From an uncultured Clostridia bacterium (GTDB taxonomy: Bacteria; Bacillota; Clostridia; Christensenellales; Borkfalkiaceae), in NCBI GenBank assembly GCA_947627065.1, contig CANQUN010000006.1, positions 1 through 64,000 on the forward strand: 64,000 bases of DNA, read 5' to 3'. Shown in pieces: positions 40,111 to 44,198 of this stretch. The translations under genes were made by a program, and so were the position numbers. The notes under the pieces are model-generated. The model worked only from the letters and a program-made list of their open reading frames with translations. It ran no database searches and had not been told where the DNA came from. Within the stretch, counting starts at the first letter, position 1, and every line of letters begins with the position of its first letter.

Positions 40111-40387
40111 TACGCTTTGAAGCCGTCTTTTCTTTCCGTCTTACACTTCGCAGCCGTCTTTTCCGGCCACGCGGTCGTATTCTTTATCGTTTTAACTGAA
40201 AAGCCGTCTTTATCGCCTCACGCCTGTCTCCCTCATTCGAAGAACCTGAACGCAAGCCTCGCAATTCTCCAATCAATTGCCGCCTTTTCTCGCTCCGCGC
40301 CACTGTTTCGCCGTTGTTATTGCAATTTCGTTAATGTAATTTCGCTCCACGTCGCTACTTTAACGCCGCCACAGCAATGCCGTTGTT

Positions 40388-40845
40388 CTAACCATCGCGC
40401 ACCGCTGTTGCCTTTCTGTCAAGTACCGCGCACGTAAATTTTGGTCTCTCTCGGCGCCTTTTTTCGTCGCCGTCTTTGCTCTAACCATCGCGCACCACTG
40501 TTGCTTTTCCGTTGCAACCCCGTACACGTTACTTTTGCTCTCTCAGCACCGTTTTTCCGTCGCCGTCTTTACTCTAACCATCGCGCACCGCTGTTACCTT
40601 TCTGCTGCAACCCCGTACACGTTACTTTTGCTCTCTCTCGGCGCCGTTTTTCGTCGCCGTTTCTACTCTCATCATCGCGCACCGCTGTTGCCTTTCTGCT
40701 GCAACCCCGCGCACGTTACTTTTGGTCTCTCGGCACCGTTTCCGTCGCCATTTCAACTCGTCATCGCGCGCCGCTGTTGCTTTTCCGTTGCAACCCCGCG
40801 CACGTAACTTTTGGTCTCTCGCGGCACCGTTTTCGCTGTACGCCT
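40388..40845 (-). repeat. Five tandem repeats of 89-95 bp in the exporter leader
   Basis: Units start at 40388, 40479, 40574, 40668 and 40757. Each contains CATCGCGCACC, CTGTTGC, TGCAACCCCG, GCACGTTACTTTT, CTCTC and GCACCGTTTTCCGTCGCC. No consistent reading frame. The copies are too similar throughout to be a CRISPR array. Confidence 0.9.
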
Positions 40846-40852
40846 GTCTCTT

Positions 40853-41106
40853 AATTATTGACGTCTATACCGCACGCGGCCCGTATCGCCACGAAAGAAG
40901 CGGTTTTTCTTTATCGTATATCGCCTTTTTTAGCCGCGAAAAGCCCGTTTTACCCCTCGTCGGAGCGCCGAAACGATCACTTTATTATTGACGTCTTAAC
41001 CGCACGTGGCCTGTGTCGCCGCAACTGAAGCGGTTTTTCTTTATCGTATATCGCCTTTTCCCAGCGCAGTCAGCGGTTTTTCTCCCTTGTCGGAGCGCAG
41101 AAACGC
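40853..41106 (-). repeat. Two tandem copies of about 130 bp at the start of the leader
   Basis: Both copies contain TTATTGACGTCT, CCGCACG, GAAGCGGTTTTTCTTTATCG, TATATCGCCTTTT and GTCGGAGCGC. Period 130 bp. Confidence 0.85.
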
Positions 41107-41370: not shown

Positions 41371-42534
41371 TTATTTGTTGCCTTTTGCCCGGTTGTGCGT
41401 TACGCACAGCATGGTGCAGTTGGAAACATCGGTCGCCCCGCCTCTGCTCCACGCGGTAACATGGTCAGCATCCATTTCCTTTAATTTATAAATCCGGCGT
41501 CTGTTGCTGTCGTGGCCAATGGCGCACAACGGGCAGTTGGAAACGCCTTTTCCTTTTGCTCCCGCCGTCTGCCGTTCATAAACAACCTGCTTTGTACGGT
41601 CGTCAAAGATGCGTATTTCGAGAAGTTTCGTGTCTGTGCATCCGCCTAAAATATACTCGAAAATGCCCTTGGGGTTACTGACTGCAAAGTCGGCAAATAA
41701 TTTCACCGCTTTTTCGTGTATATCGTTGGGGTCGTAGGCGTTAGCGTGGAACCGCTCGTACAATCCGCCCCAATCAAGGCCGCGCATCTGAGGTTTTACA
41801 TCAATAAAAACACTTGAAACCCAATCAATTACGCTGTTAAAATATGTTTTTAATTCGTTGATATCCGTATCGTATCTATGACGTGCCATGTAATCATCGA
41901 TACTGCCCTTGCTTACCCACATGAGTGCGGTGCGCAAAAAATCCTGCCGTTTTACGTCGCCGCCGATATACGCCGACCACTTTTGAATATTTGCATTCCG
42001 GCTGTTTGAAAATTCCGCCTTTGCAAGAGTAACGAACGGGCCGGAAAAGATAGCATTCAAAAGTTCTTGATCTTTGAGAGCAACGCCCGCGATATTTATG
42101 GTGCGGAACCACTCTTTTATTTCGCTCTCCGTGCCGCTGCATTCGTAAACCGTCAGTTTTGTGTCAAGAATCTTGCGTTGCAAATTTTCGGCCAGACCTC
42201 GGAAATACTGTTGCAGTCCGTTATCGTCAATGATCGGAAATTTTCCCGTCAGAAAGCGGCCGATGCTCGTAATACGCTGCTGCCCGTCAAGAATTTCAAA
42301 CTTATCCTCGGAAACCTTGTTGAAATAGATGAGGCCTATCGGGTAGCCCTTTAATAAAGATTGTATTACCGCAACGTCTTTCTTGCCGTCCGCATAAATA
42401 TAGTTGCGCTGATATTCGGGCTGGATTACAAGTTTCCCCGCAAGCCCGAAAAGCCCCTTGCCCTCATATTCGTTATAAACAAAGCCCTCGCATACCTTTT
42501 CCACCGTCAAGTCAATGTTCAATTTCGTAATCAT
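41371..42534 (-). CDS. DUF262 / HNH endonuclease, probable restriction enzyme
   Basis: 387 residues. The N-terminal DUF262 (ParB/Srx-like) domain has [17 protein letters not shown] and the hallmark [14 protein letters not shown]. The C-terminal HNH domain has [31 protein letters not shown] and [13 protein letters not shown]. The start overlaps the methylase stop (TAATG). DUF262 proteins with C-terminal HNH-type nuclease domains include GmrSD-type modification-dependent enzymes. Here the pairing with a methylase and a controller suggests a type II-like role, which is inference. AT-richer than the flanking genes and without DR28. Confidence 0.85.
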
Positions 42535-43715
42535 TATTTTTTTGTTCTCCTGCGTATAAGAATCCTTCCATAAGGCAAGCGGCCGGGTTTGCCGTTTTCA
42601 TTCAAACGCAGCCCGTTTCCCGCTTTGCATTCCGCCACCGTATACGGGGTTGTCCATAACACCTCTCCATCCGCTTCGTAACAAATTATGTTTTTGCTTT
42701 TATAGGCAACATGCTCTGATGTTTTAGGTGCGGACGCGCCGCTATCGATTATTTCAAACTGTTCGGGATTGTATCTGTCAAGGAAAGACGACGGTACCCC
42801 CATAACGCCGTCGTAATCACTCGGAATAGCGTCAACGTACGGGACGTCTATGCCGTCGTAATTATAATATCCGTAATAGCCGTTTTCTCTTATATCTTTA
42901 TGTCTGCTGTATCTCATATTATCCGCCATGGTCATGAGGTCTAACGGCTGGTGTCTGCGCCCGTGATCAAGATTGGTGTACCACGTGCAATTACGGAATT
43001 TTACCAACTTGGTAACGGGGTCATAAACGCCGTCTGCATACTCATTTTTAGCACCTTCCGGAATACCGAAATAAGCATTTCCCGCTTGAAACCCGCGCCC
43101 TATCCATATCTTATTGTCTTTTATCAGCGGGAATATTTCTTTATATGTAGCCATGCCTATTTGGCCTATGATCAAAAATTTCTTGTCAGCCTCCAAAATC
43201 CACGCGACAAAATCTCTGAAAAGCGAAAATGGCGGGTTTGTAACGATAATGTCCGCCTCATCTCGCAGTTTGCAAACTTCTTCCGTTTGAAAATCGCCCG
43301 TTCCGTCTAAATAAGACCACTCCAGATCGTCATAGTCGACGTTTCCCGATTGGTTGGCGTCCCTCGTCAGAGTAAATATCTTCCCCTTTGTAACGGCTTT
43401 CTCTTCGTCGTACTGCGGAGACGCGGTTTCAAAAAAAGACACCTGATGATATTTTTCATATTTTTCCTTTTTCACTTCTATGGCATAACTTGTACTGATG
43501 AGTTTTTTAAGCCCGAGGTTTTCAAAATTCTGTGCGAAAAATTTTGTGAAATTGCTCCACTCGGGATCGTCGCAAGGACACAAGACGACCTTGTCCCGAA
43601 ATGTGTTTGGATCAAATTCCAAATAAGCGTTGATTTCACGTTGTATATCATCAAATTGAGTATAAAACTCATCGTTTTGCCGTTTCTTCGCCTTCAATAA
43701 CGCATCGTTCGCCAT
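42534..43715 (-). CDS. Adenine-specific DNA methyltransferase, EcoRI-methylase family
   Basis: 393 residues from the ATG after AAAAGGGCGG, where [19 protein letters not shown] begins the family similarity. A GTG start at 43769 would add 18 residues. DNA adenine methylase motif IV is [10 protein letters not shown], and [15 protein letters not shown] also fits the M.EcoRI family (PF13651). Specificity cannot be read from sequence. It is coupled to the downstream nuclease gene and driven by a promoter with built-in operator boxes. Confidence 0.88.
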
Positions 43716-43798
43716 TTTTACCGCCCTTTTCAGCGCATTGTCAACCGTCCGCGCACGTCCTTCTTCCACCGCGCCCGCAGACCTGCCTTGCCGCTATT

Positions 43799-43902
43799 TT
43801 AGTCTTATACTTTATAATTATAGCACTATAAGACTAATAAAGCAACTCTATAAGACTAATTATTTTGAAAACAATGCATTAAAATATTCTTATAAGACTA
43901 AA
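43799..43902. promoter_or_regulatory. Four operator boxes in the controller-methylase divergent region
   Basis: TATAAGACTAA occurs at 43827, 43849 and 43891 on the plus strand and inverted at 43799-43809. Plus-strand starts are 22 and 42 bp apart. The boxes cover the leftward methylase promoter, and one lies just upstream of the controller start. Confidence 0.88.
43817..43845 (-). promoter_or_regulatory. Promoter of the methylase-nuclease operon
   Basis: Minus strand TTGCTT (43840-43845), 17 bp spacer containing an operator box, TATAAT (43817-43822). Start near 43810, inside the inverted box. Confidence 0.8.
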
Positions 43903-43916
43903 AAAGGTGTTTTAAC

Positions 43917-44198
43917 ATGGACGTTGGAGAGAGAATAAGATTTTTAAGGAACAAAGCCGGGCTTTCGCAAAATTCGCTTGCGGAAAGAGCGGGCGTTGCC
44001 CAAACCCACTTGCGCCGCGTGGAACTCGGAGAAGCGGACATCACCGTCGGCCATCTGCAACTTATCTGCGACGCTCTCGGCGTTTCCTTAAATGATTTTT
44101 TCAATGTAGGCGGAGATGCAGAAGAAATTTCGGTTGCCCTGTCAAACCTGACGCCCCGTCAAAAGAATCTGCTGATTGAATTTTTGAAAAGTTTATAA
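43917..44198 (+). CDS. XRE-family controller protein of the R-M system
   Basis: 93 residues. Helix-turn-helix LSQNSLAERAGVAQTHLRRV and GVSLNDFFNV place it among Cro/C1-type regulators, the family of R-M controller (C) proteins. It diverges from the methylase gene across a region with four identical boxes, so it probably controls both directions. The start follows AAAAAAGGTGTTTTAAC. Size is at the upper end for C proteins. Confidence 0.85.
   Translation: MDVGERIRFLRNKAGLSQNSLAERAGVAQTHLRRVELGEADITVGHLQLICDALGVSLNDFFNVGGDAEEISVALSNLTPRQKNLLIEFLKSL

Follow-up and report, generated by a model that had tools for sequence, protein, structure and literature searches.

Controller proteins are known for allowing restriction systems to enter a new cell without harm. 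As portrayed in the excerpted part of a review, they are activators when scarce and repressors when concentrated, some of them repress the methylase gene, and the C-controlled systems named there are of Type II, with one Type I case (PMC12707154). Their usual operators consist of paired inverted GAC/GTC half-sites, according to the abridged text of PMC3758141. Three departures from this scheme bear on the locus described here, each drawn from part of the respective paper. Proteins of the C.Csp231I/C.EcoO109I class have about 98 residues and two extra C-terminal helices, and their operators are widely spaced (PMC3115060). HsdC of Mollicutes and the controllers of Acholeplasma have direct-repeat operators for restriction-modification (R-M) control, among them triple repeats at a period of about 19 bp (PMC5282649). 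Finally, in Kpn2I the genes of the controller (C) and the methylase (M) diverge with overlapping promoters, and C represses the strong M promoter (PMC6237814).

A small regulator gene divergent from a methylase-nuclease operon

The window, by which we mean the whole 64,000-nucleotide stretch of DNA analysed, holds a locus with the following features.

41371 to 42534, minus strand: predicted nuclease with GmrSD_N and HNH domains (R; PF03235, PF01844; PADLOC REase_II)
42534 to 43715, minus strand: EcoRI-family adenine methyltransferase (M; PF13651, E 1.5e-116)
43799 to 43809, minus strand: box 1, exact match to TATAAGACTAA; inverted copy, at the predicted start site of methylase-nuclease transcription
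43817 to 43825, minus strand: predicted extended -10 of the methylase promoter, TGC + TATAAT, 17 bp from TTGCTT
43827 to 43837, plus strand: box 2, exact match to TATAAGACTAA; within the 17-bp spacer of the methylase promoter, position conserved
43840 to 43845, minus strand: predicted -35 of the methylase promoter, TTGCTT; TTG kept in relatives
43849 to 43859, plus strand: box 3, exact match to TATAAGACTAA; directly upstream of the methylase -35, over the expected place of a regulator -35
43880 to 43885, plus strand: predicted -10 of the regulator promoter, TAAAAT; box 4 begins 5 bp further on
43891 to 43901, plus strand: box 4, exact match to TATAAGACTAA; at the predicted start of the regulator transcript
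43917 to 44198, plus strand: 93-residue XRE-type controller protein (C), from HTH_3 and PADLOC matches and a fold model

We consider it likely that the 93-residue protein is an autoregulated C-type controller with the four boxes as its operator, and that the two make up a burst-then-cap switch on an exchangeable cassette. The 411-residue frame of M opens with GTG at 43769, and its start is probably the ATG at 43715, because relatives (L015, L020) begin there. R, whose protein is 91% identical to its counterpart at L020, overlaps the end of M on the same strand, so that the two form one operon divergent from C; the C gene is thus outside any operon with R, which lies on the other strand. A C gene that adjoins R-M genes and has its own putative operator upstream is found in the window and in 15 other rows that were assigned to R-M and had upstream DNA available. 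The methyltransferase is of the EcoRI type by its PF13651 match, and its partner is the GmrSD_N + HNH protein instead of an EcoRI-like endonuclease. To the left of the operon, at 40360-40990, the same short phrases recur in the translations of both strands, which suggests a repetitive stretch.

Comparison with described controllers

The 93-residue protein is small and consists mainly of an XRE helix-turn-helix, as controller proteins do (HTH_3, E 1.9e-14; PADLOC Control_protein, 8.3e-11). Its AlphaFold2 model, with a pLDDT of 89.6, is all helical: a five-helix XRE core is followed by two extra C-terminal helices at residues 66-76 and 80-92, seven helices altogether. C.BclI is its best solved relative both by sequence profile (E 2e-11) and by Foldseek. 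In a second fold comparison, which covers mainly residues 1-69, C.AhdI, SinR, C.BclI and DdrO tie at the top, the first three with Z of 12.4-12.5 and rmsd of 1.0-1.3 over 62-64 residues. The protein is therefore homologous to solved controller proteins, but the match is not exclusive to them, as the tie with SinR indicates; SinR and other XRE repressors resemble the fold roughly as closely as the controllers.

With C.BclI, C.AhdI, C.Esp1396I and C.PvuII the window protein shares a small single-domain XRE architecture and a gene adjoining an R-M system, and with Type II C proteins in general an operator, here a predicted one, over its own and the methylase promoters. It differs from them in several respects: the usual paired half-sites are replaced by single long boxes, three direct and one inverted; the usual C genes precede R, whereas this C gene stands alone and diverges from the M-R operon; and the modelled protein has two additional C-terminal helices. 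The latter feature is shared with the C.Csp231I class, whose operators are CTAAGN5CTTAG palindromes that were not found in the window sequence; a C.Csp231I entry was not among the matches listed in the PDB sequence or fold searches. The direct-repeat operator is shared with Mollicutes and Acholeplasma, whose motifs are GTGTTA or AACGAAT; in M. gallisepticum, in contrast to the divergent arrangement here, the controller is in an operon with hsdMSR, and an inverted fourth box over a divergent promoter is not described in the part of the source considered (PMC5282649). The divergence of C and M is shared with Kpn2I, itself an exception to C being in an operon with R; according to the part of the account used here, however, R is separate in Kpn2I and the site for C is within the C gene itself, whereas here R follows M and the boxes lie between the genes (PMC6237814). 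We found no Type III system under a C protein in a literature search that included the excerpted review (PMC12707154).

Since paired inverted half-sites and a C/R operon are both missing, we do not file the locus as a classical C-box system. Its arrangement nonetheless fits a controller, because there is a complete divergent promoter to repress and an incomplete promoter of its own with sites at the -35 place and at the start. The system is controller-like and differs from those described by its operator, by having the M-R operon as target, and by the exchange of cargo.

Four exact boxes between the two genes

The earlier note had claimed four identical 11-bp boxes, three of them direct with starts 22 and 42 bp apart and one inverted, and this proved exact: TATAAGACTAA occurs four times within 103 bp (43799-43901), box 1 being inverted and boxes 2, 3 and 4 direct at those distances. 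A search of the own genome for the box, which the note had proposed, likewise bore it out, returning no exact copy outside the window: in 1.945 Mb the four copies are the only exact ones, and the eight further matches have one mismatch each and are scattered. The window has a single cluster of at least four identical 11-mers (either strand) within 110 bp, and 60 dinucleotide-preserving shuffles of it had none; for the 127-bp intergenic stretch, none of 2000 shuffles gave even three identical 11-mers. Allowing up to two mismatches gives 9 matches in the window against 5.45 expected, so that the motif as such is not rare and the signal lies in the exact cluster. Chance or low complexity as a source of the cluster is ruled out by the shuffles together with the genome-wide count. 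A host-wide regulon is ruled out as well, since the own genome has no further exact copy and a reversed-pattern control gave 24 matches at up to one mismatch against 12 for the pattern itself.

The boxes are not paired inverted GAC/GTC half-sites. Neither the flanks nor the logos reveal a second half-site adjoining boxes 1-3, each of which has a single strong half-site, and box 4 has a partial inverted partner. The description of the operator as unusual thus survives insofar as paired inverted half-sites are concerned, but direct repeats have already been published for R-M controllers, as the part of PMC5282649 used here reports. A text search, with hits judged by title and the start of the abstract, found no published operator with this box sequence; one R-M paper, PMC10745947, has a 10-mer of it in a cloning primer at the start of a coding sequence, in the portion examined, and no operator.

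Two viral contigs hold clustered boxes of another spacing: at L017:8998-9041 and L018:668-714 there are two exact boxes and one near-exact box in tandem, with starts 17 and 16 bp apart or 24 and 12 bp apart (L017/L018). No regulator was recognised among the listed open reading frames alongside this double-box pattern.

Predicted promoters and their conservation

Consensus hexamers and start-site distances were taken at their textbook values. Box 1 begins at the expected start site of the methylase promoter, and the earlier claim that the inverted box lies across the methylase start point holds for the predicted transcription start (about 43810) and not for the start codon (likely ATG 43715). 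For the regulator, no -35 was found at 16-18 bp from the predicted -10, and box 3 occupies that place.

Conservation was scored in a register fixed from the window, leaving out L039 and L060, with L031 too short. In the divergent promoter, the TTG of the -35 is present in 17/17 R-M-type rows, 23/23 others and 14/14 rows of the sister subfamily described below, and full TTGACA in 0/17, 16/23 and 8/14, respectively; a -10 with at least five of six matches is found in 17/17, 22/23 and 14/14. Among the R-M-type rows and the others, TATAAT is reached in 12/17 and 16/23 and an extended TG in 17/17 and 17/23. When the spacing was left free, 17 bp was picked in 23/23 rows of the non-R-M set, 13 of which scored 12/12, and in 13/18 of the R-M set, where sometimes a different hexamer pair was chosen. 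The regulator promoter contrasts with this: its best -35 matches only 2-4 of six positions in all 41 rows.

Layout in relatives

The regulator family was found in 22 of the 201 genomes of the family that were searched, and the scan of genome contigs for the regulator gave 56 loci. The close family comprises L019-L061 (43 loci) and the viral-contig locus L075, with regulators at 55-82% identity; L062-L074 and the other viral loci (L076-L139), all at 50% identity or less, were dropped, and L060 (45%) was retained as an outlier. Box tables hold 43 rows from 45 sequences, window included, after removal of L058, which ends at the gene start, and L049, which has lost its 5' end. The position of each box is that of its best match within a wide search range, and exact distances were not imposed.

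Measured from the C start, the boxes of relatives lie at about -117 (the inverted one), -89, -67 and -25. Boxes 2 and 3 are exactly 22 bp apart in 41/43 rows (L060 being counted despite its poor boxes), and boxes 3 and 4 are 41-43 bp apart in 40/43. The layout is lost in L039 and L060, box 3 is shifted or degenerate in L046, and it is degenerate, with 3-4 mismatches, in L043, L048, L050 and L052. Box 1, at up to two mismatches, is present in 15 of the 16 R-M loci with enough upstream DNA and absent in L041; the R-M group as a whole also takes in L026 and L031, which are cut off and were placed by regulator kinship, and L021, placed by eye from the start of its cut-off partner gene. A clade of 20 regulators with a non-R-M divergent partner (tree support 99/96) has box 1 in 0/20 and retains the three direct boxes. 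Box 1 is also present at five loci where no R-M partner was recognised (L028, L029, L039, L059, L150), and it therefore tracks regulator lineage as well as cargo. These conserved positions and the predicted promoters around them lend good support to the view, already taken in the earlier note, that the boxes form a controller operator over both promoters, and the sister subfamily, where box core and recognition helix have both changed, adds to it.

At L028 (3860-4000) the regulator and all four boxes are retained while the divergent gene is down to a few codons, giving the appearance of an orphan cassette.

One cassette, several kinds of cargo

The operator is not private to one R-M system: the cassette is common to several R-M types and to non-R-M genes. 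R-M partners of no fewer than four kinds, one of them Type III, and many unrelated genes stand behind it. An EcoRI-type M with a GmrSD/HNH partner is found in the window, L020, L030 and L032. Type III Mod and Res genes stand at L022, L023, L024 and L034 by Pfam (N6_N4_Mtase or ResIII) and at L019, L025 and L061 by similarity. Eco57I-like split methylases were recognised by Pfam at L027 and L037, by similarity at L041 and by the protein start at L021 and L149. L045 has an N6/N4 methylase at the contig end, and the partner at L152 is probably a cytosine-5 methylase, judged by eye from its first residues.

In DNA identity the window cassette is closer to that of the Type III locus L061 (79%, from -118 on) than to that of L020 (70%), although L020 is of the same R-M type as the window and 82% identical to it in R and 79% in M. 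The gene downstream of the regulator is the same in the window and in L019, with different R-M types. At L055, L056 and L057 the regulators are identical or one residue apart and both flanks are alike, while the cargo differs, and homology stops between -95 and -100, where the divergent promoter has its -10. To judge from these comparisons, the C gene, the operator and the core M promoter behave as one exchangeable cassette behind which the cargo is swapped.

Some of the non-R-M loci adjoin genes of mobile elements: a resolvase gene at L038 (Pfam), with homologues at L033, L040, L051, L053 and L075, and a phage integrase gene at L033 (Pfam), with homologues at L040, L043 and L075. Among the non-R-M cargo are lipoprotein-like proteins that carry Listeria-Bacteroides or BspA repeats (L043, L059), membrane proteins with coiled coils, a protein at L151 that by eye resembles a glycosyltransferase, and unknowns. 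As to its function, Pfam, PADLOC and NCBIfam searches with 10 proteins each gave nothing firm, a sub-threshold SLATT_6 match at L051 included, and one family that was modelled (mean pLDDT 71.9, 5 sequences) had no PDB match at E <= 0.001. Some combinations recur as if drawn from one pool: the 138-residue protein of L040 is encoded further along at L051 and L053, and the second gene of L051 has a counterpart in the L055 protein.

The regulators of L030, L031 and L032 are nearly identical, and the EcoRI-type methylases of L030 and L032 are similar; the records belong to a Christensenella MAG and to Candidatus Scatousia (NCBI: Bacteria incertae sedis), and the likeness may reflect distant transfer or a binning error.

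Box core and recognition helix change together

Besides close relatives, the search of 201 genomes brought to light a sister subfamily of 14 loci (L155-L168), of which L163 belongs to the same genome as the window. An iterative search gave the boxes of this subfamily, with 91 mismatches in total; the window's box has 194 in these sequences, and 20 shuffles had a mean of 224.6 and a minimum of 215, a generous control given that the seed was read off these same upstream regions. Flanks, spacings and the divergent promoter are common to both groups, whereas the core is AGAC in the window group and GTTT in the sister group. At box positions 5-8 the window group has A in 111/123, G in 99/123, A in 116/123 and C in 107/123, and the sister group G in 40/42, T in 42/42, T in 33/42 and T in 36/42. 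The recognition helix is SQTHLRRVE in most of the window group and SPTYIYQLE in 9/14 of the sister group, with variants in the rest. In L059, where the helix reads QAHLRR, A replaces C8 in each of the four boxes, inverted box 1 among them. Core and helix thus change together, which implies that protein and boxes evolve together; this joint change, as read from aligned sequences, is the strongest evidence we have to suggest that the regulator reads the boxes, the inverted one included.

How might the switch work?

The boxes, their conserved spacing, the putative promoter elements, the joint change of box and helix and the exchange of cargo can be read in the DNA, and together they suggest a course of binding, repression, activation and timing along the following lines. 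In the absence of C, the complete methylase promoter (TTGCTT, 17 bp, TGC-TATAAT) would fire at once. C binding to box 2 in the spacer and to box 1 at the start site would then repress the M-R operon. No -35 accompanies the extended or weak -10 of the C promoter; C bound at box 3, two turns downstream of box 2, would probably occupy an activator position touching RNA polymerase and thereby raise C transcription, and C at box 3 might also, or instead, do so by clearing the competing M promoter. At high C, box 4 at the start site would turn the C promoter off, and the outcome would be burst-then-cap control of the methylase-nuclease operon. The activation step is proposed solely because the -35 is missing and because of the position of box 3, and the degenerate box 3 of four relatives weakens any claim that this box is essential. 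Given that R lies behind M and C outside the R operon, the classical logic of delaying R after M is not directly applicable, and the many relatives without any R-M partner count against a controller reading. So do the absence of a clear second half-site at boxes 1-3, in which they differ from the usual operators of dimers, and the comparable fold match of SinR and other XRE repressors.

Alternatively, the protein might only repress, with the regulator promoter acting as a weak extended -10 and box 3 repressing the methylase promoter from upstream. In its favour, each of the four boxes coincides with or borders on the M promoter or the C start, a TG extension of the regulator -10 is frequent in the non-R-M group, and some relatives have a degenerate box 3. 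The M promoter does not, however, demand the nearly constant distance between boxes 3 and 4, and the regulator promoter never has a -35, so that we regard pure repression as rather doubtful. A related scenario, which we hold to be unlikely, is modelled on Kpn2I: C would repress only the overlapping M promoter, and the polymerase so freed would raise C transcription without direct activation. The divergence of M and C and the overlap of their promoter regions resemble the part of the Kpn2I account drawn on here (PMC6237814), and in the window the M promoter elements are far better than those of C; yet box 4 at the C start is conserved as well as the others, which implies direct control of C. 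It is very unlikely that the helix-turn-helix protein is antitoxin-like or phage-repressor-like and acts also through protein contact with the cargo: CapH, HipB-type and phage repressor models give weaker or sub-cutoff matches in PADLOC and NCBIfam, but the cargo is unrelated between loci, which leaves no common protein partner. That the boxes serve a different host regulator, or are repeats with no relation to the neighbouring protein, is hardly credible, for although one-mismatch copies are scattered over the genome and binding by the protein is a prediction, the exact box has no other copy there, travels with the gene across many genomes and changes with the recognition helix.

If the protein is indeed an autoregulated controller acting on the four boxes, a wider role may tentatively be envisioned. 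The C gene, the operator and the strong divergent promoter core might constitute a portable burst-then-cap cassette serving several R-M types, Type III included, as well as non-R-M cargo, some of it on mobile elements. In a newly entered cell that lacks C, the near-consensus promoter would fire fully until accumulating C capped it, cargo would be exchanged at the -10, and the recognition classes, at least two in number (AGAC and GTTT), would be exclusion groups for incoming cassettes, without cross-regulation. One controller lineage with its operator on several R-M architectures and on non-restriction genes makes the real purpose of the switch directly testable, and the two natural specificity classes, whose helices match their boxes, are material for studies of recognition and mutual exclusion.

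The sister-class locus of the own genome (L163; contig C78, 1200-5000) holds a second regulator with GTTT-core boxes. Next to it, an EcoRI-type methylase is reduced to a short carboxy-terminal remnant while the GmrSD/HNH nuclease gene looks intact, so that the nuclease has a broken methylase of its own.
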